A stretch of DNA of 64,000 nucleotides. It comes from Streptomyces sp. HUAS ZL42. Lineage in GTDB: Bacteria > Actinomycetota > Actinomycetes > Streptomycetales > Streptomycetaceae. Where the stretch lies: contig NZ_CP160403.1 of NCBI RefSeq assembly GCF_040782645.1, forward strand, positions 4,623,001 to 4,687,000, read 5' to 3'. The notes beneath the pieces are model-generated. The model was not told the DNA's origin, made no database searches, and saw nothing but the letters and a program-made list of their open reading frames with translations. A program made the position numbers and the translations under genes. Shown here one piece after another: positions 32,086 through 59,444 of the stretch (positions are counted from its first letter, which is position 1; every line of letters begins with the position of its first letter).

Positions 32086-32159
32086 GCGGGTGTAGTTTAA
32101 TGGTAGAACATCAGCTTCCCAAGCTGAGAGCGCGAGTTCGATTCTCGTCACCCGCTCCA
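32086..32159 (+). tRNA. tRNA-Gly (anticodon CCC)
   Basis: A complete cloverleaf. Acceptor GCGGGTG pairs with CACCCGC, the D arm contains TTTAATGGTAGAAC, the anticodon stem TCAGC/GCTGA holds loop TTCCCAA (anticodon CCC), the T arm is CGAGTTCGATTCTCG, and CCA is encoded. The T-arm-to-3' end half is a common integration site; an integrase gene lies just downstream. Confidence 0.95.
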
Positions 32160-32199: not shown

Positions 32200-33413
32200 T
32201 CTAGACCGGTGTGCGGCGCGTGCACCACAACCGCACCATAAGGCCGCCGTCAACTGCCGGTGGGCTTCTCCTTGTGGTGCGCGGTCGCCGCTGTCGTGCT
32301 TCGCCCTCTCGGCACGAACCGTGTCGTCGAGCCCGGCCGCCACGTCACGCTGCCGCTCCTCGTCGGAGTGCTGATAGATCAGCGCGGCCTTCTCAGTGGA
32401 CTGGCCCGCGCGAACCATCGTGTCCTTCAGGGTGGCCCCCGAGCGGGTCGAAAGAGTGTGTCCGGTATGACGAAGGTCGTAGAACCTGAACCCGTCCGGA
32501 AGACCGACGGCAGCGCGTGCACGCTTCCACTTCCGACCGAAGGAGGTCCGCCGAAACGGCGCGCCTTTCTCACCGACGAAGACCAGCCGCCAGGCCCCTT
32601 CTCTGAGAACCAGGCGAGATGCTGCTTCACCTCCTTGTGGAGAAAGCCTGGCAGGACGACGGCACGGACGCCCGCGTCCGACTTGGTCTCGCCCGGAGCC
32701 CGCTTGCCGTTTGTCCGCTCCGGCTCGGCCACATGGACACGGATCACCATGTTGTCGACGTCGACGTCCCGTCGGCGAAGGCCGGCCAGCTCTTCAGGCC
32801 GCATCGGACCGTACGCGCCGAGGTAGACCATCAAGCGCCAGCGAATACCGATCGCGTCGGCGAGTGCGTCGACCTGGGCGACGGTGGCGATCCGCCGCTC
32901 AGCAGCGGACTCCTTGCCTGCGCCCTTGATCCGGCACGGATTGCGGCTGATCAGTTCGTCGTCGACGGCTGTCTCAAGGATGCCCTTTAGGAGGCGGTAG
33001 GCCTTGACAACGGCGGTCTTGGCCTGCGTGGTGCGAAGCCGCTCGGCACGCCACTCACGGACGCGAGGGGCCGTGATCTCGTCGAGGTCGAGCGCGCCGA
33101 AGGTGGGAAGGATGTAGAGCCGCAGGAGATGCTTGTACAGGTCCTCGGTGCGAACGGCCAGCTCCCGCTCTTCGACCCACTTCTCGGCGTAGACACGGAA
33201 ATTGACGGCCCCGGCATCGGGAGCGCGCCAGTCACCGCGGGTCAGGTCCGCCTCAACCTGGGACAGCCAGACCTCTGCATCCTTCTTGGTCTCGAAGGTC
33301 TCCTCCGCACGGATGCGCTCACCGTCGGGCCCGAGGTACGACGCCGTCCAACGGCCGGACCGATACTGCCGCACCGCGCCAAAGCGCCGACGCCTGCCTT
33401 TCTTGTTGGCCAT
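32200..33413 (-). pseudogene. int: Tyrosine-recombinase integrase with a frameshift (pSAM2-type element)
   Basis: The N-terminal 280 residues (MANKKGRRRRFGAVRQYRSGRW, core-binding domain, GAYGPMRPEELAGLRRRDVD with the first catalytic Arg) are in one frame. At the CCCC run 32595-32598 (minus GGGG) the frame shifts, and the rest (RKWKRARAAVG..., FYDLRHTGHT, then ALIYQHSDEERQ) continues in the next frame. Restoring one G makes a complete integrase. In the restored frame there is no stop until 32017, so the peptide runs through the tRNA-Gly antisense strand; that tail (RIELALSAWEADVLPLNYTR) is attachment-site read-through and not part of the enzyme. Start overlaps the xis stop. Confidence 0.85.
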
Positions 33414-33625
33414 CAGGCGGCCCTCCGGAGTCCACTACTACGGAGCCTGATCGGCTGGACCGTGCGCGCGGCGATGTACTCGTCCACGGCGCTCTGCGGG
33501 ATGCGGACGTGTCGGCCGACCTTCACGTACCGGATGCGCCGCTCCTCGATCAGCCGCCGCGGGAAGCGGGCGGAGGTGCCGAGCAGCTCGGCGACCTCGT
33601 CGACGGACAGGTAGCGATCGGTCAT
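33413..33625 (-). CDS. xis: Excisionase-like small DNA-binding protein
   Basis: 70 aa. A MerR/Xis winged helix: YLSVDEVAELLGTSARFPRRLIEERRIRYVKVGRHVRIPQSAVDEYI. It overlaps the repSA stop at its start (ATGA) and the int start at its end (TGATG), the usual repSA-xis-int order of pSAM2-like elements. It would direct excision by Int, but int is frameshifted here. Confidence 0.85.
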   Translation of the reverse strand: MTDRYLSVDEVAELLGTSARFPRRLIEERRIRYVKVGRHVRIPQSAVDEYIAARTVQPIRLRSSGLRRAA

Positions 33626-34922
33626 GTGGTGGGCTCTCCTTCCGTTCCGGGGGCGGGTTCAAGTGAGGCGGTGAGCCACCTCTCGGCGGTGCTGAGGCCC
33701 GTTCCGGCGAACACCCAGTGGGCGAGCACGAGCGTGGTTTCGCCGTCCTGCGGGACGGTCGGTGTGGCTTGGGCACGCCGCCAGTCGGCACGGGCGTCAC
33801 GGAGGGCACCGAGGGTCGTCGAGTAGCGGCGGGACTTGGTCGAGAAATGGCCGCGGAAGCCGAGCATGTGGGCCCAGGCCCGAAGGCGGAGGTCTGCCAG
33901 CTCGGGGCGAGCGCCGAGAGCCACGCGGTACGGATCATGCGCTGGGCATGATCGGTGATCCGAGCTTGCGCTAGCTCGGCCAGGAAGCGAATCGAGCGAT
34001 CCAGGGTGCCCGTCGCCGTCTCGGCGCCCTTGGTGGCGTACTTGGCGATATACGCCGCTACGGCCCGCTCGGTCAGTTCCTGGCTGTCGTCGAAGTCCGC
34101 GGAACGGATCGGGCGAACGTCGAGCTGTCGGCCGAAGACGAAGATGTGGGCCCGGCCGTCGACATCCGGCCCGTTGACGCGCGCGGCGGTGGTAGCGGAG
34201 CGGATGGCGTCCGTCAGCAGCTCGGCCGACGCCCATGGCGGGGGTGTGGTGTCTGCGCCCTCCGGGCCGTCCAGGCGGATGACAGCGTGGAAGTGGACGG
34301 CACCGCGCTTCTGGTACTCGGCCACCTTCGCGAAGGAGATCCGAGCGTGATCGCGGAACTCTCGTTGGGTGAGGCCGGCGCGCTTGGCGACTTCCCGGCG
34401 GAGGTAGATGGAGAAGCGCCGCCACAGGGCACCGGCGTGTGCGTTCCAGAGGACGGCCGCTTCGTAGTCGTACGAGTCCGGGTCGAGTGGCGTGCCCAGC
34501 TTGGGATCCTGCTCGTCGTGGCGGATGCCGCAGCGGCAATCCCGGCCGCTGGAGGGGCGGTTGTGGACCGGCCCGAAGCTCGGGGCGGTGAAGGTGGCGA
34601 AGACGCGCGGGTGGGTTGCGACCTGTTCCGACGTGCCCTTGCCGCCGCGCAGTCCGGCGGTGATCAGGTGGTAGGTGTCGCGGCGGTACGTCTCGGCGCA
34701 GGCCGCACACCGCGTTGCACGGCGGTTGTTGCAGCGGACGAGGAGCTGACCTGCGGGGAGGGTGGCGGAGTCCAGGTGATGCAGGACTCGGCCGATCTCG
34801 CCGGTTGCCGTGTCGACTTCGTATTCGGTGCGGTGGCCGTCGAGGCGGACGGGGTGGGTACAGCCGCCCAGGCCGGAGAGTTGGCGAGCCAGCTCGGGCA
34901 TGTTGCCGAGTGAGGCCAGCAT
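33622..34922 (-). pseudogene. repSA: RepSA-type replication initiator with a one-base frameshift
   Basis: The frame beginning at ATG 34922 (MLASLGNMPELARQLSGLGGC) carries the RepSA features of pSAM2-like elements: VRCNNRRATRCAACAETYRRD (zinc-finger cysteines) and KRGAVHFHAVIRLDGP (HUH-like). Near 33921 one G is missing (GCGTGGCTCTC instead of GCGTGGGCTCTC), and the last third (LGARPELADLRLRAWAHMLG..., FSTKSRRYSTT) lies in the next frame. The restored protein would be about 430 aa. Conjugative and replicative functions of the element are thus lost twice, here and in int. Confidence 0.8.
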
Positions 34923-41284: not shown

Positions 41285-42505
41285 ATGACCAGCGTGTTCT
41301 GCGGCATCGACTGGGCCACCGACCACCACGACATCGCACTGCTCGACGAGGCCGGCACCCTCCTGGACAAGCTCCGCATCGACGACACCCCAGCCGGCCT
41401 GAGCCAGCTCCTTCAGCTGCTGGCCCAACACGGCGACAGCCCAGACAACCCGATCCCCGTCGCCATCGAGACCTCTCACGGCCTCCTGGTCGCCTGCTTA
41501 CGCACCACCAGCAGACCCATCTACGTGATCAACCCGCTCACCGCCGCCCGCTACCGCGACCGCTACGCCCTCAGCCGCAAGAAGTCCGACCACCTCGACG
41601 CCAAGGTCCTGGCCCACATCCTGCGCACCGACCCCGCAGAACACCGCCCTCTGCCCGCAGACAGCCACCTTGCCCAGGCCGTCGCCGTCCTGGCCCGAGC
41701 CCAGCAGGACGCCGTCTGGGACCGCGTCCAGACCGGCAACCGCCTCCGCTCCCACCTGCGCCAGTACTTCCCCGGCTTCCTCACCGTCTTCAAGCACTTC
41801 CGCGAAGGCCTCGCCTCACCCGTCACCCGCACCCTGCTCGCCGCGGCCCCCACGCCCACCCAGGCCGCCCAGCTCACCCGCCCCCAACTGCGAGCCATCC
41901 TCAAAAAGGCCGGCCGCCAACGCGAGATCACCGGCGAAGTCGAACGCCTCCACACCTTGCTGCGCGAACCCCAGATGCAGCAACCGCCCCTGGTCGAGCA
42001 GGCCATGGGCACCAAAGCCCTTGCTCTGCTGCGGCAGTTCGACGCCGCCTGCACCAGCGCCGACGAGCTCGAAGCCGCCACCACAGCCGCCTTCACCACC
42101 CACCCAGACGCCGAAATCATCACCAGCTTCCCCGGCCTCGGCGCCCTCACCGGCGCCCGCATCCTGGCCGAACTCGGCGACGACCACACCCGTTTCCCCA
42201 CCGCCCGCGCACTTAAGGCCTACGCCGGATCAGCCCCCATCACCAGATCCTCCGGACGCAAGACCACCGTCCTGGCCCGCCACATCAAGAACCAGCGCCT
42301 CGCCTCAGCCGGCTACATCTGGGCCTTCGCCGCCCTCACCGCATCCACCGGAGCCCGAGCCCACTACGACCGCCGCCGAGCGGCCGAAGAACGACACGTC
42401 GCAGCCCAACGCAACCTCTTCAACCGCCTACTCGGCTGCCTCCACCACTGCCTCACCCACCACATCCCCTACGACGAACAGACCGCCTTCCCCGACACGG
42501 CTTGA
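41285..42505 (+). mobile_element. IS110-family element, transposase coding region
   Basis: 406 aa. N-terminal DEDD (RuvC-like) domain with the first Asp in CGIDWATDHHDIALLD, Glu in VAIETSHG, and SDHLDAKVLAHIL later; C-terminal transposase-20 domain (ITSFPGLGALTGARILAELGD, AGSAPITRSSGRK, HIKNQRLASAGYIWAF) with the Ser in 'GSAPITRS'. IS110 elements use a serine-dependent recombinase guided by a bridge RNA from a non-coding end. The ORF is uninterrupted, so it may be active. The ends of the element could not be fixed from sequence alone. Confidence 0.85.
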
Positions 42506-43879: not shown

Positions 43880-44728
43880 TTAGGGGTTCCCCGTAGGTTC
43901 ACCGCCGGAAGCCGCTACGGGCGATGGCCAAGCTCGAGCAACGCGCCCCCACGTCTCATTTGGCATGTAATCAGTGATCTTCAGGGCTGACATCCAAGCC
44001 GTCACGAAGTGCATATTCAAGTGAGCAACAAGGGGCATCAGCATCTCCTGGGGTGTCGCTTCAATTGCAACAAGACCCGCCTTCGGTTCGGGAGAAACGT
44101 CAACATTATCGTTATGCGGACAGCACCAGTTAACGAAGCCCTTATTCAATACCCAGACACTATCGACCCGCAACTCGGGAGGCCGAGTCTCGGAAATATC
44201 TCTCAGCGCTTCAGCCAAGCTATCAATATTCGCTCCATCGTAGGCAAATATGATGCCTACTGTTGGCACGTAATGCCACGACCTACCATAGACCCATCGC
44301 GTCTGGCCAACCTTATCCCAGTGATAAGCCGTCTTCGGGAAGGCCTTTAGCCGCGCAATTTTCTCGCAAGCCGAGCGCAGCTCTTCACGGTCCAAGAACG
44401 ACTTGACTTCGATCACCCCGTAGAGGCATTCGACAGGGACGATTCGATAATCCTCTTCATCCCAAAACGGGGGCGTACTGGGATCCATTATGAGAATGTC
44501 ACATTGTCCGGACACTTCTCCATTCGTAGCAACTACCTCGCCACTGTGTTCTGCAATAACTGTGCGAGGCAGGTACTTCCGCAGAAAGGTACTCAAGAGT
44601 TGAGCTTCCCGGACGGTTCCCTTTGAACCTCGATGCTTAGCAATGCCACTTGCTTTAAAGTCAGCCAACATCCTGTCGGCAACGGACGCGAGGATCTTTG
44701 CGAGCGCGGAAGGCGGAGGATCAGACAC
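43880..44728 (-). CDS. DUF6602-type putative nuclease
   Basis: 282 aa. The core has the order expected of a PD-(D/E)XK nuclease fold: HSGEVVATNGEVSGQCDILIMD (Asp in strand), YRIVPVECLYGVIEVKSFLD (Glu-x-Lys) then helices. It resembles DUF6602 proteins. GC content around 44.0-44.6 kb is clearly below the surrounding genome, indicating recent transfer. Proteins of this fold occur in defence systems and restriction modules, but no partner methyltransferase is present. Confidence 0.6.
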   Translation of the reverse strand: MSDPPPSALAKILASVADRMLADFKASGIAKHRGSKGTVREAQLLSTFLRKYLPRTVIAEHSGEVVATNGEVSGQCDILIMDPSTPPFWDEEDYRIVPVECLYGVIEVKSFLDREELRSACEKIARLKAFPKTAYHWDKVGQTRWVYGRSWHYVPTVGIIFAYDGANIDSLAEALRDISETRPPELRVDSVWVLNKGFVNWCCPHNDNVDVSPEPKAGLVAIEATPQEMLMPLVAHLNMHFVTAWMSALKITDYMPNETWGRVARAWPSPVAASGGEPTGNP

Positions 44729-44795
44729 GGCAACAGTGTGCCATCAAGACGGGGCGGCCCCTGTACATGCGAAGGCGCCCTCCCGGGCCTTCCTC

Positions 44796-44890
44796 GGGCC
44801 GTGGAAGGGCGCTCAACGATGACCAACGCCGACAACTGCCGACAGCTCGATAGCAGGTCAAGACGTTGATCGCTAAGGCGGCCGCAGGTC
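44796..44890. repeat. Attachment-scar-like repeat, family 1, copy A
   Basis: Contains GGGCCGTGG, then GCTCAACGATGACCAACGCC and CGCAGGTCACGGCC. The GATGACCAACGC..GACAA..CCGAC block and the CGCAGGTC end are nearly the same as in copy D. Probably the arm region of a lost integrase attachment site. Confidence 0.5.
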
Positions 44891-45031
44891 ACGGCCAGCA
44901 GTGATCAGTTGTGGCTGCTCTGAGACAGAGGCGCCTGCGGCCGTGCAGTGGCCGGATCGCTCCCTTGTGAGCTCTTCGTGTGCGTGTCACACAGTTGAAA
45001 GGCGGGGTGATCTGGGGGAGGGGGACGCTGC

Positions 45032-45658
45032 ATGTCCGTGTTTGGTGGCGATCCGGGCGCGCCGTCGGCCTGGGCGGTCGAGCGGTTCGGGCAGCAGGCC
45101 GGCAGACTCGCGGCCGCGGTTCCGATGCAACTGGCCAAGGCTCATGCGACAGCTCACGCCGCGCACCTCGCAGCTGGGCTGAAGAAGCGAAGCCCGTACG
45201 GTGTCACCCTGGCGGAGGCCGTGCGCGAGGGCCTGGCGGACCTGGCGCGCGAGCTGGACGAGTCCGTGCGGGAAGTACTGGGGTACGAGTACGCCGTGAT
45301 CAACGATCACGCTCTCTTCCCCTTCAAGTACGCAGACAAGCCGAGGCCGCTCGATCGTGCTCGGTTGCCCGCCAAGGCTTCCTACACGCGACGCCGGATG
45401 TTCCGGGCGCACGGGCCGAAGGCACGGCCCGCGTTGTTCGACCTCGACGACGACCTGACAACAGAGGAGTACCTACAGCTCCACGAAGCCTTCGAGGAGC
45501 TGGGGGCCTCGACGCAACTCGTGTGCCTGTTCTTCACGGCCGACGTCGAGAGCGGCATCCACGCCATCTACTGGGGGCAAGCCCACCTCGAACCCGACCG
45601 CACCTTCGACTGGCTCCACAGCGAACAGCTCCCAGTCGCTACCCAACCGCTTGAGTGA
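45032..45658 (+). CDS. Hypothetical cargo protein
   Basis: 208 aa. ATG 45032 follows GGGGGAGGGGGACGCTGC. Alternating helical segments (WAVERFGQQAGRLAAAVPMQLAKAH, LADLARELDESVREVLGYEYAVIND), a Lys-rich middle and an acidic C-terminal half (LFDLDDDLTTEEYLQLHEAFEELGAS). No domain recognised. It lies between repeats A and B. Confidence 0.5.
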   Translation: MSVFGGDPGAPSAWAVERFGQQAGRLAAAVPMQLAKAHATAHAAHLAAGLKKRSPYGVTLAEAVREGLADLARELDESVREVLGYEYAVINDHALFPFKYADKPRPLDRARLPAKASYTRRRMFRAHGPKARPALFDLDDDLTTEEYLQLHEAFEELGASTQLVCLFFTADVESGIHAIYWGQAHLEPDRTFDWLHSEQLPVATQPLE

Positions 45659-45708
45659 TCGGCGAGCCGTGACGGCGGCTCCGGTGCGAGGGCGAGCGGC
45701 CGATTCCT

Positions 45709-45808
45709 GGGCCGTCCCTGGGCCGTCCGCGGGCCCCCGAGGCCGACCAATGACGACCGACAGCGACAGTCGAGCTACCGCAGCGATCACTGAAACACCA
45801 GGTCAGAG
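45709..45808. repeat. Attachment-scar-like repeat, family 1, copy B
   Basis: GGGCCGTCCCTGGGCCGTCC, then GACCAATGACGACCGACAGC and CCAGGTCAGAG. The tandem GGGCCGT pair and the terminal CAGGTCAGAG recur in copies C and D. Confidence 0.5.
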
Positions 45809-45929
45809 CCGCTCGACCATACGGGTTTCCCCCAAGGGGTAGCCGTCCGGCAAGATGGGGTGTTGTCGCCAGTCGGCGCCCCCGGAAACGCCGCCGCATC
45901 GTCCGTGTCCCGTCGATAGGCTCGGCGCC

Positions 45930-46328
45930 GTGAGCAAAGACGCCCGTCTCATAGCAAACCATCGAGTCCACGTCGTACCCGCGGTCCTGGCTCTGGCCAA
46001 TCCACCCTGGCAGCGGAACGTCTGGCTCGACCCATCGGCGTTCGAGAACCTGGACCACGTCGTCCACACGCTCTTTGACGACTTCTGTGACGCCGACGAG
46101 CCCGAGCGATTCCTCGGCGTCAGCCTGAGAACTGAGGAAGAGGTCACTCTCATGCGCGAGTTGGGCGTCGCGCTCAACGCCGCAGCGGCCCAGGCGTCCA
46201 ACGACACGGACGAGGCGTATCTAAAGTCGCCCTCTTGGCCAGAGGTCGTTGCCGTCGCCGGGCGCCTCGCTCAGGTCATGGTCGCGAACGACCTGGAGGA
46301 ACTCGCTGCGCTGTACGAGTCCACCTGA
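45930..46328 (+). CDS. SCO4402-family protein
   Basis: 132 aa from GTG 45930. The pattern VLALANPPWQRNVWLD, then FDDFCDADEPERFLGVSLRTEEEVTLMRELGVAL and a YLKSPSWPEVVAVAGRLA end matches the SCO4402 family of small Streptomyces proteins of unknown function. It lies between repeats B and C. An alternative ATG at 45855 adds 25 residues without a ribosome site. Confidence 0.6.
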   Translation: MSKDARLIANHRVHVVPAVLALANPPWQRNVWLDPSAFENLDHVVHTLFDDFCDADEPERFLGVSLRTEEEVTLMRELGVALNAAAAQASNDTDEAYLKSPSWPEVVAVAGRLAQVMVANDLEELAALYEST

Positions 46329-46488
46329 GCCCCGAAACTCGACATGAGCCGCAGCATTGAGCGTCTAACTGCGCGACAAAGCGGACGGACAGCGGCGGAC
46401 ACGCACGGACACCTACGGACCATCGCAGCGGTCTGATGCGCAGTGGCCCAAGGTCTGCAGCCCGCCCCAGTTGCTTCGGGACGAAAAC

Positions 46489-46994
46489 TCAGTCATCCAT
46501 GTCTTCTGGACCGACGTCGCGGAAGACAATTCTGTAGTCACCGCTCCGAACAAGGTCATCGACGACCTCGACCATCCCGGCTATGCCTCGATCGCGGACG
46601 ATCAGTCCATCCCAGACGTAGAAGTATTTGTCGCCAAGGCATTCACCGGTCTGTCGCCAACGGTCCATGGTGCGGTGGACATTGTCCAGGGTGTAGATCG
46701 TCCCCGACCAGCGTTCCCCGTTGTCGAAGACCACCCACATGTCGACGTCATCGACCTCGTCGAGGGGTACCCCGCCATCGGGGACGAAGCAGATCTCATA
46801 GCCGTCACGTTGAACGCGGTAGAACGCCCCGTCCCACACCAGGTTGGCTCCCCACCACTTGGCCGCTCAAAGCGGATGTCAGCCCACCTGGCCGGCTCGA
46901 ACAGGCTGGCCCCCTCCACAACGGGCCAGTGCTGCGGGTCTACAGCTGCCGGCAGACGCAGGCAGAGCGATCGTAGAGCAGCGTTGCGCGCCAC
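46489..46994 (-). pseudogene. Frameshifted hypothetical gene
   Basis: The C-terminal 110 residues (VWDGAFYRVQRDGYEICFVPDGG, VDMWVVFDNGERWSGTIYT, DRGIAGMVEVVDDLVRSGDYRIVF) are continuous to 46489. The N-terminal 48 (LPAAVDPQHWPVVEGASLFEPARWADIRFERPSGG) lie in a second frame that ends near 46845. Joined, they make one globular protein of about 155 aa, so a one-base indel near 46845-46855 seems to have split it. Family unknown. Confidence 0.5.
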
Positions 46995-47029
46995 CGCATT
47001 GCGGTTTCCTGCGAAGTCAGCCCCAGCCC

Positions 47030-47110
47030 GGGCCGTCCCTGGGCCGTGCGAGGTCGCCCGACGTCGACCGACAACGACGGAAGCTCACGGCATATGAACT
47101 GGTCAGAGTC
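47030..47110. repeat. Attachment-scar-like repeat, family 1, copy C
   Basis: GGGCCGTCCCTGGGCCGTGC, then GACGTCGACCGACAACGACGG and CTGGTCAGAG. The opening 16 bases equal those of copy B. Confidence 0.5.
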
Positions 47111-47376
47111 GTGGGCTCCTTCAGCCTTGCTGGTCAGCCGGAGGGATGTTTAGTACGCCGGCTACTGATCACCCTTGGCGGCGCTTGACTCTCCCATTGA
47201 GACTGCGCCCACCTGTGCATCATGTTCCTGCTACAGCAGCTTCCTGATCCCCCTGCCACCGTGAAACCCGACAGGCCGTCAGCCACACTCGACAGAGGTG
47301 AACGAAAAGCCCACCTAGTCACGCAGGCTTCCCAGCGAGAGTGACGAGGTGGGCACGAACCTTCTGGAGGCTCAAC

Positions 47377-47589
47377 ATGAGTGTGACTCTGTCCCCGTGG
47401 GGTCTGTCAAACCCTGGTCTCAAACCGGGGGTGATCACAGTGGTCATCATCGTTGTGCTCACGTGGGGCGCAGCGGGGGAGGTGGTAAGTGCGTGCTCCG
47501 ACATCCTCGGACTGGTAGCAGTCCTCTTCGCCGGACACGTACAGCAGCGGAGTACAGCAACCACCCCGATCGTCAGCGAGCGTCGATAA
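47377..47589 (+). CDS. Small membrane protein
   Basis: 70 aa. ATG 47377 follows CTGGAGGCTCAAC. A hydrophobic segment (LKPGVITVVIIVVLTWGAAGEVVSACSDILGLVAVLFAG) gives two short or one long helix; the tail is polar. It lies between repeats C and D. Function unknown. Confidence 0.5.
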   Translation: MSVTLSPWGLSNPGLKPGVITVVIIVVLTWGAAGEVVSACSDILGLVAVLFAGHVQQRSTATTPIVSERR

Positions 47590-47679
47590 ACATCAAGGGC
47601 TGACTGATCAGGCCTGCAGACCTGAGCGACCTTCGTGCCTGTAGTTCGCATCGAGGGGCATACCTCGACACCCCCGCTC

Positions 47680-47790
47680 GGGCCGTCTGTGGGCCGTGCG
47701 GGGGTGCTCGACGATGACCAACGCTGACAACCACCGACGGCTAAGTCGCAGGTCGCAGCGCTGATCCAATATGTGGCCGCAGGTCAGAGA
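47680..47790. repeat. Attachment-scar-like repeat, family 1, copy D
   Basis: GGGCCGTCTGTGGGCCGTGC, then GCTCGACGATGACCAACGCT, GACAACCACCGACGG and CGCAGGTCAGAGACCC. The most complete copy; it resembles the stretch that follows integrase genes in tRNA-site elements. Confidence 0.55.
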
Positions 47791-47855
47791 CCCGGCCCTT
47801 CACTTCTTCGGCTACTAACCTGCTGTGCCAAGGGCTGTCCACCAGTGGAGGCACG

Positions 47856-48197
47856 ATGGAACCCGGAGAACTCGTAGCAGCTGTTCGTCGCGGAACCCCT
47901 TTGGTCGCTGCCTGCTCTGCTGTGGAACCGGCGTGGCAGGCCTGGGTCGCTGCGACTCCCGCCATCCGCGTCGAAGATCGCCCTGGCCTACGGAACGCTC
48001 AACTGGACCTAATCTGGGTCATCCGCGAATGGCACCCCCACTACATAGCCAACGATCTCTGTTGGGCGGAAGGCGACGGCATGCACACGCTCCGCCGCTC
48101 CACCTCACGAGGAGAGGATGAGCTCTGGGCGGCGCTGGCGCAGTTCGGCGGCGTCGAAGCCTTCGACTATCCCTGGCGCACCGACTACCCGGGATGA
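47856..48197 (+). CDS. Hypothetical cargo protein
   Basis: 113 aa. ATG 47856 follows GGAGGCACG. Short soluble protein with a Trp-rich middle (WQAWVAATPAIRVEDRPG, LDLIWVIREWHPHYIANDLCWAEG) and a terminal FDYPWRTDYPG. No domain recognised. It lies between copy D and repeat F, the attachment-type stretch before the tRNA-Ser fragment. Confidence 0.5.
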   Translation: MEPGELVAAVRRGTPLVAACSAVEPAWQAWVAATPAIRVEDRPGLRNAQLDLIWVIREWHPHYIANDLCWAEGDGMHTLRRSTSRGEDELWAALAQFGGVEAFDYPWRTDYPG

Positions 48198-48199
48198 CC

Positions 48200-48259
48200 G
48201 TGCCCCATCCGTGCCCGATCTGCCGGGGAATCACGGGTAACGACGGTTGGCGACGGTCA
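48200..48259. repeat. Attachment-scar-like repeat, family 2, copy F
   Basis: GTGCCCCATCCGTGCCCGATC then CGGGGAATCACGGGTAACGAC and GGCGACGGTCATTCG. The CGGGGAATCA block recurs in copies G and H. Directly followed by a hairpin and the tRNA-Ser 3' half, which is the order int-arm-att of an integrase attachment site. Confidence 0.6.
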
Positions 48260-48270
48260 TTCGACAGCAG

Positions 48271-48307
48271 AACGACCCCCGACCATTTCACCTGGTCAGG
48301 GGTCGTT
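48271..48307. terminator. Hairpin at the 3' side of the tRNA-Ser fragment
   Basis: AACGACCCC(C)GACCA pairs with TGGTC(A)GGGGTCGTT around TTTCACC. On the minus strand it lies downstream of the tRNA-Ser 3' end and is probably the tRNA terminator. Confidence 0.75.
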
Positions 48308-48315
48308 CACCTGCG

Positions 48316-48369
48316 CGGTGGGTGTGGGATTTGAACCCACGGTGGCTTGCGCCACGACGGTTTTCAAGA
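48316..48369 (-). other. 3' half of tRNA-Ser(TGA): attachment-site fragment
   Basis: Reading right to left: CTTGAAAACC (anticodon TGA), then the long variable arm, then the T arm GTGGGTTCAAATCCCAC and acceptor strand ACCCACC with discriminator G. The 5' half of the tRNA is absent; the sequence departs just before the anticodon loop. This anticodon-to-3'-end segment is what tRNA-site integrases exchange, so it is an attP/attR relic. An intact tRNA-Ser copy is not in this window. Confidence 0.85.
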
Positions 48370-48428
48370 CTGCTCACGAGCTTGACTCGCCCATCGAGAA
48401 TTCACCGACCCTACCGCCGCGCCGGGCA

Positions 48429-49538
48429 TTACACTTGCCTCCAGTTCATTCGCGTACCCGTCTCATCGGTTTGAGCTTCCAGGTGGCGCGCTGGACTCAG
48501 CACATCATGCGGAAACTGTCGCTCTGCCCATGGATTGTCGAATCGCAACAGAGTCGGAAGATCCTGCGCACCAGGGCGCCATCCGCGCATGAGAACAAAA
48601 ACACAGCTCAGGCGCCTGTTTCGACCCTCCGGATGTGCGGCCGAGATCGAAAAGACGCCGTTTCTCTTTCGTATCGGCGTCACCGCATCGGGGTTTGCCA
48701 AGTCGATAGCGATTGCATCATCTCCGTACAAGGCATTAATGACATCCTCAGTGTCACAAAGAGCGTCTCGTACGCTAACCAAGACAGCAAAAGGCTTGTC
48801 GCGGTGCTCGTACCTTCCCCCCGCCTTACTGCTGACTGCGGAACGCAGCCTACGATCAGATGCCACAAACCCTCCGACGCTCGGGCCAGCAGCCACGATC
48901 GGTTCGCTATCTGTAGGCGGCTCGGCCCGACGCCTGGGAACGAACGTGAATACAAGCTCGACGGCGGGCGTGGAGTATTGAGCCTTGGGAAAATATCCCG
49001 GAGTCATCTCAGGAGGAGGATCGGGAAGCGCATCAATCTCACTCTGCAGCCATCGGGCCAAATCGTTAAGGCTAGGTTGTCGATTCCAAGCCACAACCTC
49101 CGGCGTCACGTACCACTTGTTCGGTCGAACTCGACGGTTTATCTCCTTCACGAAAGAGCTGTTCCTTGAGATTTCAGAGGCGAAGCCCTTCTCCATGAAC
49201 AGCGTCATGAGCTCGACACCGGCAACGTATTCCCCGCCCCGATAGAGACGGAAATCCGGACTACCTTCATCTTCTTCATATCGAGCCAGACAATTACGCG
49301 AGAACAGGTCATGCGCGTACAGCTCATCCAGAGCCTGGAGTAGCCCGATTTCATCTTCACCTCGAAGGCGACTGAGGACCATCGAGCTACGGTCGGTGAA
49401 AGTGGAATACCAGGCGTTAATCAGCCCCCGTGCACCGACTGCTTCAGGCGCCCCGGCGCTGCGCAGCCAGGATGACAGGCCGTCAAAAGGGCCAGTGCTT
49501 GGCTCCTCGGGTTCGGGGAAAACCCACTGTGAACTCAT
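48429..49538 (-). CDS. Hypothetical protein with a possible nuclease-like region
   Basis: 369 aa from ATG 49538. A central stretch (YEEDEGSPDFRLYRGGEYVAGVELMTLF) has the order Asp-x-x-x...Glu-Leu that occurs in PD-(D/E)XK folds, then an acidic domain with a Pro-rich loop. Its GC content is below the core. It lies just outside the tRNA-Ser fragment, a typical spot for cargo at the far end of an integrated element. No firm family. Confidence 0.5.
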   Translation of the reverse strand: MSSQWVFPEPEEPSTGPFDGLSSWLRSAGAPEAVGARGLINAWYSTFTDRSSMVLSRLRGEDEIGLLQALDELYAHDLFSRNCLARYEEDEGSPDFRLYRGGEYVAGVELMTLFMEKGFASEISRNSSFVKEINRRVRPNKWYVTPEVVAWNRQPSLNDLARWLQSEIDALPDPPPEMTPGYFPKAQYSTPAVELVFTFVPRRRAEPPTDSEPIVAAGPSVGGFVASDRRLRSAVSSKAGGRYEHRDKPFAVLVSVRDALCDTEDVINALYGDDAIAIDLANPDAVTPIRKRNGVFSISAAHPEGRNRRLSCVFVLMRGWRPGAQDLPTLLRFDNPWAERQFPHDVLSPARHLEAQTDETGTRMNWRQV

Positions 49539-49781
49539 CCTTAGAGACTATTGAGCCCCTGCGCTCAAGAATCAAGGCGTTTGCGCGTGGATCATGCGGC
49601 GAGTGATCGGCCGTGTCGGCGGCCTGCCCCTGTCCAACCATGCTGCGACAAGCAGCCGTCAGAGCGGACACCATCAGTGCCCCTAGACCCCCCTAGACCA
49701 CGACTGGGCTGCGCCGCTCAAGCCAGCTGACCAGCTCACCGGGCCTCAACGACCACCCCGCCGTAGTTCGGGACGAGGCCA
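49539..49781. other. No supported gene
   Basis: About 240 bases without ribosome sites or conserved frames, separating the hypothetical gene from repeat copy G. Confidence 0.4.
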
Positions 49782-49840
49782 TGCCAGATGCGTGCAAGAT
49801 CGTACAGGGCACCGCGGGGAACACCGGGGAATCAGAGGAC
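49782..49840. repeat. Attachment-scar-like repeat, family 2, copy G
   Basis: TGCCAGATGCGTGCAAGATCG then CGCGGGGAACACCGGGGAATC. Shares the GGGGAACA.CGGGGAATC block with copy H and GTGC-GATC spacing with copy F. Confidence 0.5.
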
Positions 49841-50018
49841 CCGTCACCAAGAGTCGACGCCCTTCCGCTCCAGGTCAGTCCCCAAGCGAGGTCCGAGTCA
49901 CCTCAGCTTCCCAAGCTCAGATGCTCGTGGTCAGGCGGACAGTTCCAGTTCGCCTCGCATCCTCGTCGACGGCGGCGCAGTCTGAAGGAAGTAAGCCTCA
50001 TGCCGTGAGGTGAGGCCC

Positions 50019-50651
50019 ATGAACCGCCTCGTTCATGTGGGAGTAGTGCCGCTGCTGGTAGCCGCAGTGATCGGCACGAGCGGCTGTGGAGGCACAGACT
50101 CAACGCCCGCGCAGACCCCGACCACAGTGACCAAGACAGTCACCGAGTCCACGACATCGGCATCCGAGCCATCAACGCCGGCGCCCGTGTCCTCCCGGCC
50201 GACGGCTCCATCGACGGTCGCCGACGCGTCATCCGTCGTCCGCGAGTACTTCGCTGCCATCAACGCTCACGACTACCGACGGGCCTGGGACCTCGGGGGC
50301 AAGAACCTCTCGGGCTCCTACACAGCCTTCGTTGACGGGTTCGCCACCACGGCCCACGACACAGTTCACATCCTCGGTGCGGACAGCGATACCGTCTCGA
50401 TCGGGTTGGAGGCCGCACAAACCGACGGCTCACTGCGAATCTTCGAAGGCACCTACACCGTTCACAGCGGCACAATCGTCGCGGCGGACGTACGCGAGGT
50501 GACGGGCCCGGAGCCACGACCCAGCGGGGCCTCGCCCTACTACGAAAACTGCGACGAAGTGCGAGCCGCAGGCGCCGCTCCCCTCTATTGGTGGGAGCCT
50601 GGCTACGCGCCACATCTTGACCGAGACGGCGACGGAGTGGCATGCGAATAG
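50019..50651 (+). CDS. Lipoprotein with a C-terminal excalibur calcium-binding domain
   Basis: 210 aa. The lipobox (GTSGC, Cys about residue 23) follows a hydrophobic signal. A Ser/Thr/Pro linker, a globular middle (SVVREYFAAINAHDYRRAWDLGG, NTF2-like) and the excalibur motif at the end (YYENCDEVRAAGAAPLYWWEPGY then LDRDGDGVACE). The last part is a conserved calcium-binding knot found in secreted proteins of actinomycetes. ATG 50019 follows GAGGTGAGG. Likely a cell-surface protein. Confidence 0.75.
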   Translation: MNRLVHVGVVPLLVAAVIGTSGCGGTDSTPAQTPTTVTKTVTESTTSASEPSTPAPVSSRPTAPSTVADASSVVREYFAAINAHDYRRAWDLGGKNLSGSYTAFVDGFATTAHDTVHILGADSDTVSIGLEAAQTDGSLRIFEGTYTVHSGTIVAADVREVTGPEPRPSGASPYYENCDEVRAAGAAPLYWWEPGYAPHLDRDGDGVACE

Positions 50652-50736
50652 CCACTGTGAGCCACACAGTGTCGCCGTCCGCGGCCATCGTACGGCCGAC
50701 TGACCAGTTCAGTAGATCAATGAGCGCACCACAACC

Positions 50737-50780
50737 GCACCAGATCGAGCGGGGAACAGCGGGGAATCACGGTGAACGCA
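50737..50780. repeat. Attachment-scar-like repeat, family 2, copy H
   Basis: GCACCAGATCGAGCGGGGAAC then AGCGGGGAATCACGGTGAACG. The GGGGAACA.CGGGGAATC block is shared with copy G; copies F and H share CGGGGAATCACGG. Confidence 0.5.
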
Positions 50781-51700: not shown

Positions 51701-51843
51701 CAGAGCCGACCGCGTCATGCTAATGTCGATCTCAGTTGCAGGTGTGGTTGCCAGAAGGTTCATTTTCCGACGGGGTAATCAGCACGGCGACGCGGGATCC
51801 GCACAGGGCGAATTCCGGACATCGTCTCCGAAGGAGAAATGAC
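51701..51843 (+). promoter_or_regulatory. Long 5' leader of the first cold-shock gene
   Basis: The leader closely resembles that of the second cold-shock gene (57360-57500): GTGGTTGCCA(G/A)AAGG then TTTTCCGACGGG, CACGGCGAC and the shared CCGAAGGAGAAATGAC ribosome region. Long conserved leaders of this kind control csp translation at low temperature in other bacteria. Confidence 0.6.
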
Positions 51844-52047
51844 ATGGCTACTGGCACCGTTAAGTGGTTCAACGCGGAAAAGGGATTCGGCTTCATCGAG
51901 CAGGACGGCGGCGGCGCCGACGTCTTCGCCCACTACTCGAACATCGCCACCCAGGGCTTCCGCGAGCTGCTGGAAGGCCAGAAGGTGTCGTTCGACATCA
52001 CGCAGGGCCAGAAGGGCCCGACGGCGGAGAACATCGTTCCGGCCTGA
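51844..52047 (+). CDS. CspA-type cold-shock protein
   Basis: 67 aa, full length. RNP-1 GFGFIEQ and RNP-2 DVFAHYS are both present in the five-strand OB fold ([32 protein letters not shown]). ATG 51844 has AAGGAGAAATGAC upstream. It binds single-stranded RNA and DNA and melts structure. It opens the first of two cold-shock cassettes, followed by a hairpin and a DEAD-box helicase. Confidence 0.95.
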
Positions 52048-52071
52048 CACCGGCAGCAACGCATACTTCGC

Positions 52072-52107
52072 AGCTGGGGCCCGCACCTTGGGGTGCGGGC
52101 CCCAGCT
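52072..52107 (+). terminator. Perfect hairpin between the first csp and helicase genes
   Basis: AGCTGGGGCCCGCACC-TTGG-GGTGCGGGCCCCAGCT, a 16-bp perfect stem. The same hairpin, with one wobble, follows the second csp at 57729-57764. It probably ends most csp transcripts while allowing some read-through into the helicase. Confidence 0.85.
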
Positions 52108-52291
52108 CGCTGCATTTCAGGGCGTGTGACAGGAAGGCCCCGCCACATCACCGAAGGGTGACGCATTCCCCGGTCGATACGACTCGGCGCCCATCAACCC
52201 CGGCTCGTTCTCGCGATTCTCTGCGCCGTTCATCTTGCTGCGGAAATTCCTTGCTACGTGCCTACGTGCTCACATCGAGGAAAGGTTCCGC

Positions 52292-53917
52292 TTGAACCGC
52301 GCACGCACCACGCGCACGACCCGTACCAACGACCGCTCCCGGGGTTTTGCCGCCAAGCGCTCGGGGGCTCACCGGCGTTCCAGGGGCAACGATCGCCGGC
52401 AGACCGCACCCCAGGGCGAGTTCGCGCTGCCGGTGACGGTCACGCCCGCGCTGCCCGCCGTCGACTCGTTCGCCGACCTCGTCCTGCCGGCCTCGTTGCT
52501 GACCGCGCTGGGTCGTCAGGGCGTGACGACGCCGTTCCCAATCCAGGGGGCGACCCTGCCGAACTCCCTCGCCGGACGTGACGTGCTCGGCCGTGGCCGC
52601 ACCGGATCGGGCAAGACCCTCGCCTTCGGCCTGGCCGTGCTGACCCGTACAGCGGGCCGGCGCGCCGAGCCACGGCAGCCACTGGCCCTCGTCCTCGTAC
52701 CCACCCGAGAGCTCGCCCAGCAGGTCACCGACGCGCTCGCTCCGTACGCCCGTGCCGTGAAGCTGCGGCTGGCCACCGTGGTCGGCGGGATGTCGATCGG
52801 CAAGCAGGCCGGTGCACTCCGCGCCGGCGCGGAGGTCGTCGTCGCGACCCCGGGGCGCCTCAAGGACCTCATCGTCCGGGGCGACTGCCGGCTGGACGAC
52901 GTCGACATCACTGTCCTCGACGAGGCAGACCAGATGGCCGACATGGGCTTCATGCCCCAGGTCACCGCCCTGCTCGACCAGGTCCGCCCCGCAGGACAGC
53001 GCTTGCTCTTCTCCGCCACCCTGGACGGCAACGTCGACCTGCTGGTCCGCCGCTACCTGATCGACCCGGTGGTCCACTCCGTCGACCCGTCCGCGGGCGC
53101 GGTCACCACCATGGAACACCACGTCCTCCACGTGCACGAAGCAGACAAGCACCGGACGACCACCGAGATCGCGGCACGAGACGGCCGCGTGATCATGTTC
53201 CTGGACACCAAGCACGCCGTGGACCGGCTGACCAAGCACCTGCTGAACAGCGGCGTCCGCGCCGCGGCCCTGCACGGTGGCAAGTCCCAACCGCAGCGCA
53301 CGCAGACCCTCGCCCAGTTCAAGACCGGACACGTGACGGTACTGGTGGCGACCAACGTCGCGGCCCGCGGCATCCACATCGCGGGCCTCGACCTCGTCGT
53401 CAACGTCGATCCGCCCACCGACCACAAGGACTACCTGCACCGCGGCGGCCGTACCGCTCGCGCCGGGGAGTCCGGCAGCGTCGTCACCCTGGTGACCCCC
53501 GGCCAGCGTCGCGGCATGAACCGGCTGATGGCTTCGGCCGGCATCACCCCGCAGATCATCGCCGTACGGTCCGGTGAGGCGGAGCTGACCCGCATCACAG
53601 GCGCCCAGGCCCCTTCCGGTGTCCCCGTCGTCATCACCGCACCGGCCGTGCGGCGTCCCCGCCGCGCCGTGTCCTCCGCGACTCCCTCACCCGAGGCCGC
53701 CGCGACCGCTCCGCCCAAGGGCGCCCCACCGGACAAGCGAAGCGGCGCAGGGCACAGCGGCCCGCCTTCGACTCGGCGGGCTAGGGGCATCGATCAGAAG
53801 CTCACCCAACTCCGAGGAGGCAGCTTTGACACCGGTTCAGACGCAGCGACAACAGGCGGTTCGCTCCCCCATGAGCGCGGTCGACGACATGGAGGCAGCC
53901 GGACCCCGGGTCAGTGA
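52292..53917 (+). CDS. DEAD-box RNA helicase (cassette 1)
   Basis: 541 aa from TTG 52292, chosen because GAGGAAAGG precedes it and the second copy begins at the same place (MNRARPSRSSRTTR). Motifs in order: Q motif FPIQGATLPNSL, I GRGRTGSGKT, Ia PTRELAQQ, Ib TPGRL, II DEAD (VLDEADQMADMGF), III SAT, V ARGIH, VI HRGGRTARAG. Basic Arg/Ser-rich N- and C-terminal tails suggest RNA binding. It unwinds RNA at low temperature. The C-terminal frame overlaps the next gene by about 90 bases. Confidence 0.9.
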   Translation: MNRARTTRTTRTNDRSRGFAAKRSGAHRRSRGNDRRQTAPQGEFALPVTVTPALPAVDSFADLVLPASLLTALGRQGVTTPFPIQGATLPNSLAGRDVLGRGRTGSGKTLAFGLAVLTRTAGRRAEPRQPLALVLVPTRELAQQVTDALAPYARAVKLRLATVVGGMSIGKQAGALRAGAEVVVATPGRLKDLIVRGDCRLDDVDITVLDEADQMADMGFMPQVTALLDQVRPAGQRLLFSATLDGNVDLLVRRYLIDPVVHSVDPSAGAVTTMEHHVLHVHEADKHRTTTEIAARDGRVIMFLDTKHAVDRLTKHLLNSGVRAAALHGGKSQPQRTQTLAQFKTGHVTVLVATNVAARGIHIAGLDLVVNVDPPTDHKDYLHRGGRTARAGESGSVVTLVTPGQRRGMNRLMASAGITPQIIAVRSGEAELTRITGAQAPSGVPVVITAPAVRRPRRAVSSATPSPEAAATAPPKGAPPDKRSGAGHSGPPSTRRARGIDQKLTQLRGGSFDTGSDAATTGGSLPHERGRRHGGSRTPGQ

Positions 53918-57359: not shown

Positions 57360-57500
57360 GATCGAGCACGCCGTGCTACTGTCGAGACGGGTTGCAGTTG
57401 TGGTTGCCAAAAGGGTTCGTTTTCCGACGGGTTGATCATCACGGCGACACGGAGTCCGCACCAGGCGGACTCCGAGCACCGTTTCCGAAGGAGAAATGAC
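57360..57500 (+). promoter_or_regulatory. Long 5' leader of the second cold-shock gene
   Basis: Matches the leader of the first csp along most of its length (GTGGTTGCCAAAAGG, TTTTCCGACGGG, CACGGCGACACGG, CCGAAGGAGAAATGAC). The two leaders are far more alike than the flanking DNA, so they are under selection. Confidence 0.65.
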
Positions 57501-57704
57501 ATGGCTACCGGCACTGTGAAGTGGTTCAACGCCGAAAAGGGCTTCGGCTTCATCGCGCAGGACGGCGGCGGCGCCGACGTCTTCGCCCACTACTCGAACA
57601 TCGCCACCCAGGGCTTCCGCGAGCTGCAGGAAGGCCAGAAGGTGTCATTCGACGTCGCCCAGGGCCAGAAGGGCCCCACCGCCGAGAACATCGTTCCGGC
57701 CTGA
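57501..57704 (+). CDS. CspA-type cold-shock protein (cassette 2)
   Basis: 67 aa. Differs from the first Csp in only a few places (IAQ for IEQ, LQE for LLE, VAQ for ITQ). RNP-1 GFGFIAQ and RNP-2 DVFAHYS are present. Same ribosome site AAGGAGAAATGAC. It opens the second csp-DEAD cassette. Confidence 0.95.
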
Positions 57705-57728
57705 CACCGGCTCCGACGCATATTTCGC

Positions 57729-57764
57729 AGCTGGGGCCCGCACCTTGGGGTGCGGGCCCCGGCT
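57729..57764 (+). terminator. Hairpin between the second csp and helicase genes
   Basis: AGCTGGGGCCCGCACC-TTGG-GGTGCGGGCCCCGGCT, 16 bp with one G-U pair. Same position and almost the same sequence as the hairpin at 52072. Confidence 0.85.
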
Positions 57765-57882
57765 CGCAGCATTTCCAGGGGGATTCACCCCTGTTGTCTT
57801 CGGCCCGTTCTCGCGATTCTCAGCGCCGTTCATCGTGCTGCGGGAATTCCTTGATACGCGCCTGCATCGAGGAAGGTCCCGC

Positions 57883-59361
57883 ATGAACCGAGCACGCCCG
57901 TCACGCAGTTCACGCACCACCCGCACCTATGAACGCTCCGAGGGCTCCGCCGCAGGCAGCTCCGGCACGCGGCACCGGCTCAAGTCCAAGCCCGAGCCCA
58001 AGCCCAAGGGCCACGGTGGCCGATCCACCACGCCCGGCGCCGAGTTCACGCCACCGAACACGATCGAGCCCGCGTTGCCCGCCGTAGGGTCGTTCGCCGA
58101 ACTCGCCATGCCGGCACCACTGCTGGCCGTACTCGGCCACGAGGGCGTGACCGTGCCCTTCCCGATCCAGGGGGCCACCCTGCCGAACTCCCTGGCCGGC
58201 CGCGACGTACTCGGCCGTGGCCGTACCGGTTCCGGCAAGACCCTCGCCTTCGGCCTCCCGCTGCTGGCCCGTACGACGGGCCGGCGCGCCGAACCGCAGC
58301 AGCCGCTGGCCCTCGTCCTGGTACCCACCCGCGAACTCGCCCAGCAGGTCACCGACGCACTCACGCCGTACGCCCGCGCCGTACAGCTGCGGCTGGCCGC
58401 CGTGGTCGGCGGGATGTCGATCGGCAGGCAGGCGCATGCGCTGCGGAACGGGGCAGAGATCGTCGTGGCAACGCCGGGGCGGCTCAAGGACCTCATCGAC
58501 CGAGGTGACTGCCGATTGCGCGACGTCGCCATCACCGTCCTGGACGAGGCGGACCAGATGACCGACATGGGGTTCATGCCCCAGGTAACCGCACTGCTGG
58601 ACCAGGTGCGGCCCGGCGGCCAGCGGATGCTCTTCTCGGCCACCCTGGACCGCAACGTCGACCTGCTCGTCCGCCGCTACCTGAGCGACCCGGTTGTTCA
58701 CTCCGTCGACCCGTCGGCGGGTGCCGTCATCACGATGGAGCATCACGTCCTCCATGTACACGAGGCGGACAAGTACCGCACGACCACCGAGATCGCGGCA
58801 CGGGACGGCCGGGTGATCATGTTCCTGGACACCAAGCACGCGGTGGACCGGCTGACCAAGCACCTCCTCAGCAGTGGCGTCCCTGCCGCAGCACTGCACG
58901 GCGGCAGGTCCCAGCCGCAGCGCACCCGGACTCTCGCTCAGTTCAAGAGCGGGCAGGTGACGGTGCTGGTGGCGACCAATGTCGCGGCGCGCGGCATCCA
59001 CGTCGACGATCTCGACCTGGTCGTCAACGTGGATCCGCCCGGCGACCACAAGGACTACCTGCACCGCGGTGGCCGTACGGCCCGCGCCGGCGCGTCCGGC
59101 AGCGTCGTCACCCTCGTGACCCCCGGCCAACGCCGCGACGTGGCCCGGCTGATGGCCACGGCCGGCATCAATCCGACGATCACCGCCGTCCGTTCGGGCG
59201 AGGCGGAGCTGAGCCGCATCACGGGCGCCAAGGCCCCGTCCGGTGTCCCGGTCGTCATCGCCGCGCCGACCGCGGAGCCGCCCCGCAAGGCGGCCGCGAC
59301 CCGGAGCCGTCGAGGGCGCACCGCTCGGGGCCGGTCCGCGGGGCGGCGCCGCGCCGCGTGA
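57883..59361 (+). CDS. DEAD-box RNA helicase (cassette 2)
   Basis: 492 aa from ATG 57883 with GAGGAAGG upstream. Same motif set as the first (GRGRTGSGKT, PTRELAQQ, TPGRL, LDEADQMTDMGF, SAT, ARGIH, HRGGRTARAG), with a shorter basic C-terminal tail (RSRRGRTARGRSAGRRRAA). The two helicases are strongly alike in the core but differ in the tails, so they may have divided roles. Confidence 0.92.
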   Translation: MNRARPSRSSRTTRTYERSEGSAAGSSGTRHRLKSKPEPKPKGHGGRSTTPGAEFTPPNTIEPALPAVGSFAELAMPAPLLAVLGHEGVTVPFPIQGATLPNSLAGRDVLGRGRTGSGKTLAFGLPLLARTTGRRAEPQQPLALVLVPTRELAQQVTDALTPYARAVQLRLAAVVGGMSIGRQAHALRNGAEIVVATPGRLKDLIDRGDCRLRDVAITVLDEADQMTDMGFMPQVTALLDQVRPGGQRMLFSATLDRNVDLLVRRYLSDPVVHSVDPSAGAVITMEHHVLHVHEADKYRTTTEIAARDGRVIMFLDTKHAVDRLTKHLLSSGVPAAALHGGRSQPQRTRTLAQFKSGQVTVLVATNVAARGIHVDDLDLVVNVDPPGDHKDYLHRGGRTARAGASGSVVTLVTPGQRRDVARLMATAGINPTITAVRSGEAELSRITGAKAPSGVPVVIAAPTAEPPRKAAATRSRRGRTARGRSAGRRRAA

Positions 59362-59444
59362 CGTATCGGTGGTCCGCCGTCGATGCGGCGACCTGTCCGG
59401 AGCCATCTCGACCAGAACATCCGCCCGTACTGCAGGAGGCGACC

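Follow-up and report, generated by a model that had tools for sequence, protein, structure and literature searches.

How does a row of small genes come to stand in a chromosome, most of them single, each beside a repeat of attachment type and none accompanied by an integrase? This question is raised by positions 44,796 to 50,780 of a 64,000-nucleotide stretch from Streptomyces sp. HUAS ZL42 (contig NZ_CP160403.1, positions 4,623,001 to 4,687,000; the whole stretch is called the window hereafter). The genome, from the genus Streptomyces, comprises 9.87 Mb in a single contig. On balance, and with considerable reserve, we regard the array as probably a mosaic accretion of integrase-less modules inside a degraded element resembling the actinomycete integrative and conjugative elements (AICEs), with a layout like that of an integron. 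In these modules, usually one small cargo gene would be followed by the arm and core of an integrase attachment site. The evidence lies in integrase elements that carry the same arms, in cores that copy different chromosomal targets, and in the single orientation of the arms across many genomes.

Attachment-type sites and cargo genes

Three families of arms were distinguished: the GGGCCGT pair (GG), CGTGCC/CGGGGAA (CG) and GGCGGAC (GA). Between 44.7 and 50.8 kb they form eight sites, to which the GGGCCGT family contributes four, the CG family three and the GA family one. The seven repeat stretches listed by a first-pass annotation of this DNA were all confirmed in the sequence, and the GA site at 46368-46486, which it had missed, brings the count to eight. 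The sites and the genes between them are as follows.

43880..44728, minus strand: cargo gene at the left end of the array, DUF6602 / NucC-like PD-(D/E)xK nuclease
44778..44917, plus strand: L-type arm and core (core 44905-44917, TCAGTTGTGGCTG), 90% identical over 140 bp to a far-end arm in the same genome
45032..45658, plus strand: cargo gene A, 208 residues, no assigned function, widespread in Streptomyces
45706..45863, plus strand: A-type arm and core (core 45849-45863, GGCAAGATGGGGTGT); target, the presumed ettA 5' region
45930..46328, plus strand: cargo gene B, SCO4402 family / DUF7945, with a presumed start codon (the longest reading frame starts at 45855, within the A core)
46368..46486, plus strand: GA-type arm and core (core 46469-46486, tRNA-Pro-like anticodon loop)
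46489..46839, minus strand: cargo gene C, 116 residues, no assigned function
47027..47171, plus strand: C-type arm and core (core 47158-47171, CCGGCTACTGATCA); target, the presumed moeZ 3' end
47377..47589, plus strand: possible small cargo gene D, with a homologue of 66% amino-acid identity at locus L105 that is also followed by a D arm
47673..47817, plus strand: D-type arm and core (core 47803-47817, CTTCTTCGGCTACTA); CGGCTACT is common to the D and C cores
47856..48197, plus strand: cargo gene E, 113 residues, no assigned function
48196..48372, plus strand: S-type (CG family) arm and 3' part of tRNA-Ser (core 48357-48372)
48429..49538, minus strand: cargo gene F, 369 residues, no assigned function, with a homologue of 70% amino-acid identity in array locus L096
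49778..49918, plus strand: Y-type (CG family) arm with a tRNA-Gly(CCC) anticodon-loop core (49904-49918)
50010..50651, plus strand: cargo gene G, Excalibur calcium-binding domain
50724..50780, plus strand: CG-family arm without a recognisable core

The nuclease encoded at 43880-44728 is a possible defence effector. Upstream of gene C, a non-coding block of about 140 bp (46850-47013) recurs with 82-94% identity in seven other loci, several of which have no match to gene C; Rfam had no entry that matched it at the gathering cut-off. In several genomes, C-, D- and S-type cores are followed by the motif CTTGACTC-CCCATTGAGACT (in the window at 47183-47213 and 48380-48410), which may be a promoter or a further part of the attachment site.

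Cores and their chromosomal targets

The core that follows an arm is a short copy of a chromosomal target, and the targets differ among the sites. The labels tRNA-Gly and tRNA-Ser come from ARAGORN, and the core labels ettA, moeZ, rlmN, tRNA-Pro, tRNA-Arg and tRNA-Val are names that we presume from the sequence. Three sites have ends derived from tRNA, namely a piece of tRNA-Ser (48318-48372), the anticodon stem-loop of tRNA-Gly(CCC) (49904-49918) and a tRNA-Pro-like loop (46469-46486), so the earlier statement that only one repeat ends in a tRNA half was too narrow. The S-type site is 79% identical over 176 bp to a stretch that holds part of an intact tRNA-Ser(TGA). The sites at 44905, 45849 and 47158 copy the ends of protein-coding genes, and the D core at 47803 probably does so too. 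Of 16 aligned sequences fetched for the A site (45706-45863), 11 run on into ettA. The window holds seven core motifs, two of which are similar, and in a motif scan only the tRNA-Gly core occurred twice in good form (32112 and 49904).

Arm families and their relation to integrases

The arms and cores of the GGGCCGT family are those of real integrase elements. Exact GGGCCGTNNNTGGGCCGT is present in eight copies in the genome, three of them inside 44796..50780, and the copies at 4467 and 6876 kb, outside the window, are located at the 3' ends of open tyrosine-integrase genes. Copies with one mismatch stand at both ends of an element at 7480.5-7492.2 kb in the same genome, which has an open integrase gene and an arm plus core matching 44778-44917. 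In three integrase genes of this genome the GGGCCGT pair lies inside the coding 3' end, where it reads GPQTA or GPDTA. The repeats of the array correspond mainly to the arm at the far (target) end of such an element, the integrase-side arm having the same pair. The first-pass annotation had likened the repeats to the arm region between an integrase gene and its tRNA site; the arm-plus-core character holds for the GGGCCGT family, but the arm is mainly that of the far end. Its proposal that tRNA-site integrases built the array holds in part, the GGGCCGT repeats being sites of tyrosine integrases, but the targets include the ends of protein genes.

The CG and GA families, by inference, also belong to integrases, because they have tRNA-derived cores and an arm-like pair stands beside the tRNA-Gly integrase. 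For the CG family the ties are the copies of tRNA-Gly and tRNA-Ser after the arm and the arm-like pair between tRNA-Gly and an interrupted integrase gene, and for the GA family only the tRNA-Pro-like core and its location in the same arrays. Retained attachment sites of integrase elements are therefore seen for the GGGCCGT family and presumed for the other two.

Survey of arm arrays in Streptomyces

With 44930-48200 as query, a DNA search found matches in 223 of 392 members of the genus (E<=1e-10), in blocks with recurrent boundaries. Arm profiles were applied to 79 Streptomyces loci (1.49 Mb), which had been picked for matching units of the window or the ettA and tRNA-Gly regions; 53 stretches had been retrieved for context, together with 20 more ettA loci. 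The GGGCCGT, CG and GA profiles gave 65, 70 and 21 matches, respectively, at E<0.01. Sequence-reversed controls gave none at this threshold and three at E<1, all of the GGGCCGT family. Neighbouring far-end arms had the same orientation in 93 of 93 pairs from 35 loci, counting neighbours less than 6 kb apart and leaving out arms judged to be integrase-side. The array-like layout noted in the window thus recurs in other genomes with uniform orientation.

The same polarity was found outside the sequences from which the profiles had been built. Four plasmid regions, taken from 29 matching plasmid records and containing stretches that match the window query, had 21 arms, with 17 of 17 pairs co-oriented and no control matches; the integrase seeds had no match in these regions. 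In one of them (L195, NZ_CP109170.1 705000-750000) an integrase gene is annotated, at a distance of more than 10 kb from the first arm. The annotated cargo of this region, which belongs to a 791-kb linear plasmid, is defence-like and comprises AbiV, AIPR, restriction endonuclease, PIN and growth-inhibition immunity genes. The genome studied here also has a second array at 9303-9322 kb (L041), with four co-oriented arms (CG, GG, GA, CG) about 0.55 Mb from the contig end.

The intervals between arms are short and poor in mobility genes. Among the 94 below 8 kb, the median distance from one start to the next is 1.1 kb, and none matched the window integrase, RepSA or any of three GG-type integrases at E<=1e-3. 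Eight of the 94 matched any of 35 proteins from three integrase elements; among the nine proteins matched are GntR-type, NUDIX and IS110 proteins and some without a name, but no integrase. Loss of integration genes within the unit is accordingly seen in all 94 intervals as far as these integrases and RepSA are concerned, transfer genes having been covered through the 35 proteins of the three elements. This agrees with the original description of one or two small genes beside each repeat with the integrase gone.

The 84 intervals of up to 3.5 kb contain 104 open reading frames (ORFs) from 81 families, and 74 of them hold none to two. The ORFs run in either direction, 56 with the arm and 48 against it. 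Pfam and PADLOC matches among 100 scanned interval ORFs include GntR, TerD, SMI1/KNR4, Imm32, GIY-YIG and PD-T4-6 models and transposases, these being among the first 25 of 56 Pfam families and the first 25 of 36 PADLOC families; the scan covered ORFs of at least 80 residues with all residues determined, with 48429-49538 in place of 48318-49169 in the window.

The cores of neighbouring arms were then compared where a script recognised both. They differed in 34 of 44 pairs and were the same in ten, which include two zero-length artefacts and one arm given the core of its neighbour, so a few assignments are evidently wrong. Seven clean same-core pairs bound units of 0.7-1.8 kb that would nominally be excisable. 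Accretion of the kind that yields cis-mobilizable elements (CIMEs) would give all tandem units one core, which these pairs do not show, and plain serial insertion at one tRNA fails on the same count. Simple tandem accretion at tRNA-Gly as the whole story was rejected, as the cores differ. The array is not ordinary one-site stacking, because its cores copy different targets, including tRNA-Gly, tRNA-Ser, a tRNA-Pro-like loop and the ends of protein genes.

Host element of the array

To the left of the array, the window contains the features of an integrative element.

32086..32159, plus strand: tRNA-Gly(CCC), the target at the left end of the host element (ARAGORN; Rfam tRNA match)
32219..32237, plus strand: arm-like pair of the CG family (CGTGCACCACAACCGCACC) in the gap between tRNA-Gly and the integrase gene; the arm at 50724 has the same sequence over 17 bp
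32427..33413, minus strand: tyrosine integrase with an arm-DNA-binding domain; a stop precedes the catalytic C-terminus
33438..34922, minus strand: RepSA, pSAM2-type replication initiator (Pfam E=3.9e-121)

An integrase gene and a RepSA-type replication gene next to a tRNA, the arrangement of an AICE, are present at tRNA-Gly, the integrase frame being interrupted (its remainder was found in another frame, read by eye). RepSA marks the host element as AICE-like. No TraB/FtsK-like transfer gene was found in the scanned window proteins, which cover part of the ORFs of the element, and a search of a phage collection, made with regard to a phage origin, had no match. The last arm of the array stops at about 50.78 kb, and from 50821 onwards the chromosome is conserved again, as seen in three other genomes (G007, G009, G013). 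Given the tRNA-Gly, arm-like pair, interrupted integrase gene and RepSA on the left and this resumption on the right, we read the array as the right end of a degraded pSAM2-type, AICE-like element at tRNA-Gly(CCC).

Among relatives, the region from tRNA-Gly to a pair of cspA and DEAD-box genes is a variable hotspot. The cold-shock/DEAD-box pair that borders it occurs a second time, in similar form, at a distance of a few kb (51840-53917 and 57363-59706 of the window). Two IS110-type transposases, both of 406 residues and with the same N-terminus, are encoded beside the array (41285-42505) and inside the L-type element of the same genome (L040:7877-9097).

Presence, absence and pairing of genes and arms

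Different states of occupation were seen at 31 ettA loci. They comprise empty sites with the conserved 5' region only (for example L127, L135 and L140), one apparently intact integrase element of 16.7 kb (L131) and integrase-less elements with several arms; L134, L142, L143 and L146 have extra arms of other types. At moeZ, 13 of 57 matching genomes were compared in detail. Nine have just a short gap from a neighbouring hydrolase gene to moeZ, and two (G033, G020) have larger insertions. One genome (G267) has gene C alone with a C-type arm that lacks the GGGCCGT pair and, on the left, a tRNA-Pro-like core; another (G016) has a lone ORF of 143 codons, then a C-type arm also without the pair. Presence or absence of units of one gene and one repeat across genomes, the check that the first-pass annotation had proposed, is thus seen at one site, moeZ (two genomes with a unit, nine without).

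Genes and arms are not firmly coupled. Gene A (45032) is followed by at least four different arms, and the arms next to it include those of the presumed ettA, moeZ and rlmN targets. Its association with so many arms does away with the suggestion of a fixed gene-plus-repeat unit, and fixed integron-like cassettes of a gene and its site were rejected for this reason. The left boundary of the gene-A unit (44948) was not accepted as a recombination point, since its 75-80% identity may mark a conserved promoter.

Junctions at cores

Some junctions between shared and unrelated sequence lie at cores, and they bear on a possibility that we consider doubtful but real, namely that the modules are active cassettes which resident AICE integrases swap at the cores in trans, each with its cargo, arm and core. 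The arrays would then operate as integrons do, though with more than one recombinase and more than one type of site. Loci L102 and L117 are 93% identical over 965 bp rightwards from the tRNA-Gly core, exactly where the homology starts, and the 160 bp on the left give 0.54 against 0.51 for shuffled sequence. From the same point L102 and L143 are 88% identical over 590 bp (left side 0.62, shuffled 0.53). Around gene C, L102 and the window share 89% over 525 bp (left side 0.64, shuffled 0.53); there, as in L102/L103, homology begins 7-9 bp before the tRNA-Pro-like core. The left sides of L102/L143 and L102/window are arms of the same family with residual similarity. In L090 a block of 217 bp is present twice with 99.5% identity, bounded by two different cores and with different sequence outside. 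An active system is further favoured by the seven same-core pairs around short units and by the intact integrase with a matching arm in the genome itself.

Against it stands a general count of the points at which homology starts or stops within the arrays. Of 238 such endpoints six fall at cores, and of the 144 distinct positions five do; the length of the cores would lead one to expect 1.15%, and the difference is not significant (p=0.058). Endpoints near ettA cores had been excluded beforehand, and 52 of 156 arms lacked a recognised core. Endpoints at arm starts were not enriched (1 of 238). In addition, the pairing of cargo and arm is loose, neighbouring cores mostly differ, and single units of the window are not bounded by matching cores. 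Core exchange is likely for some of the junctions, while the general count is not significant. In its widest form the idea would be that Streptomyces possess a dispersed cassette system, integron-like but with no integrase of its own. Single genes, with arm-plus-core sites of many specificities, would stand in co-oriented arrays on chromosomes and giant plasmids, and any AICE integrases in the cell would exchange them at anticodon-loop and gene-end cores. Several recombinases could then address one array, and its modules could insert at various targets in the chromosome; we put this forward tentatively, as a minority view.

Homologous or illegitimate recombination alone, with ends swapped at the shared GGGCCGT and related motifs and no integrase action, is an unlikely source of the array. 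It would account for L088 and L092, which share gene A (92% identity) to just past the GGGCCGT pair and then continue into different arms, and L090/L092 break at the same kind of place. It does not account for the L102/L117 block, which begins at the core next to unrelated sequence and needs no shared arm. That the repeats are ordinary terminators or promoters of small genes is very improbable and was rejected: hairpins are present at several sites (for example 48265-48313) and the sequence upstream of ettA comes from the A site, but the GGGCCGT sites bound integrase elements, marking their ends and targets rather than following gene ends irrespective of element boundaries, and carry target copies, and the three polar families stand beside ORFs of either orientation.

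Assembly of the array

In the mosaic accretion that we favour, each module would usually consist of one small cargo gene followed by a far-end arm with its core, and six or seven integrase specificities would be represented. Elements of different specificity would have joined through integrase-dependent insertion or through co-integration by way of shared sequence, both of which keep polarity, and would later have shed the genes for integrase, replication and transfer but kept cargo and arm. An integrase with a matching arm and core could still use a site of the array in trans, the L-type integrase being the candidate for 44778-44917. That arms of different specificities all point the same way speaks against random insertion with later decay, which does not provide a fixed polarity; it would be expected if elements join by integrase-aligned insertion or by recombination through shared co-oriented sequence.

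Several observations weigh against mosaic accretion. No intact element of CG or GA type with an integrase was found at the four loci considered (L074, L078, L101, L126): by ORF listing, the tRNA-Gly neighbours of L074 and L078 include no recognised integrase, and the integrase of L101 adjoins a presumed tRNA-Arg and has a different arm. The integrase of the host element in the window has an interrupted frame, and the search for integrases in the intervals used few seeds. L107 and L113 diverge within a truncated gene and not at a core, which is plain erosion. Neat deletions that spare cargo and arm and leave no integrase remnant are not expected from random decay, and this repeated outcome of one or two genes and an arm is what mosaic accretion explains least well.

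Even as a fossil, the array shows that one-gene modules, each marked by an attachment site, can make up a hotspot in Streptomyces. Arm profiles can then pick up accessory genes that searches for integrases would overlook, candidate defence genes among them. Should the modules still be mobile, a dedicated integron integrase would not be needed for gene cassettes, and the view of gene flow in these antibiotic producers would change.

Comparison with known systems

Integrons are arrays of small genes separated by co-oriented recombination sites. The arrays described here resemble them in that all sites have one orientation (93 of 93 pairs in the survey, 17 of 17 on plasmids). In contrast to integrons, they have no shared attC-type site, with three arm families and several cores instead, their genes lie in either orientation, their sites are integrase-type arms with cores, and no single integron integrase is known for them. 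No dedicated search for IntI beside attI was made; the window integrase scores 15.6 against the 265-bit cut-off of the integron model.

The closest relatives are found among accreted elements. The portions of PMC5704250 drawn on here describe integrative and conjugative or mobilizable elements and CIMEs stacked at a hotspot, where decayed elements keep their attachment sites and a helper integrase may mobilise them. The array shares the retained sites, and a helper might mobilise it too, a matching integrase gene being present in the genome. It differs from accretion at a shared attachment site in that its neighbours mostly differ in core and arm family, its modules contain about one gene and up to eight sites stand in a row. 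For Streptomyces, the relevant part of PMC9513070 reports accretion of AICEs, loss of int and rep that leaves cargo and direct repeats, integrase switching and several targets including rlmN. The accreted AICEs in that part are flanked by identical repeats, and co-oriented single-gene arrays of several specificities are not described in it. The PAISt island (PMC4057263) has an internal attachment site that splits it into excising modules, and its authors draw the comparison with integrons; as presented there, and unlike the array, it has its own integrase and a single core sequence, and its modules measure 105 and 569 kb. The diversity and integration sites of AICEs are treated in PMC3218068. 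Taken together, the sections used of these four papers describe stacks that share a site or very large modules. In the published literature searched, which excluded preprints, we found no report of co-oriented one-gene arm arrays of mixed specificity. On the reading that we favour, the array of Streptomyces sp. HUAS ZL42 would be a new variant of the accretion/CIME kind.

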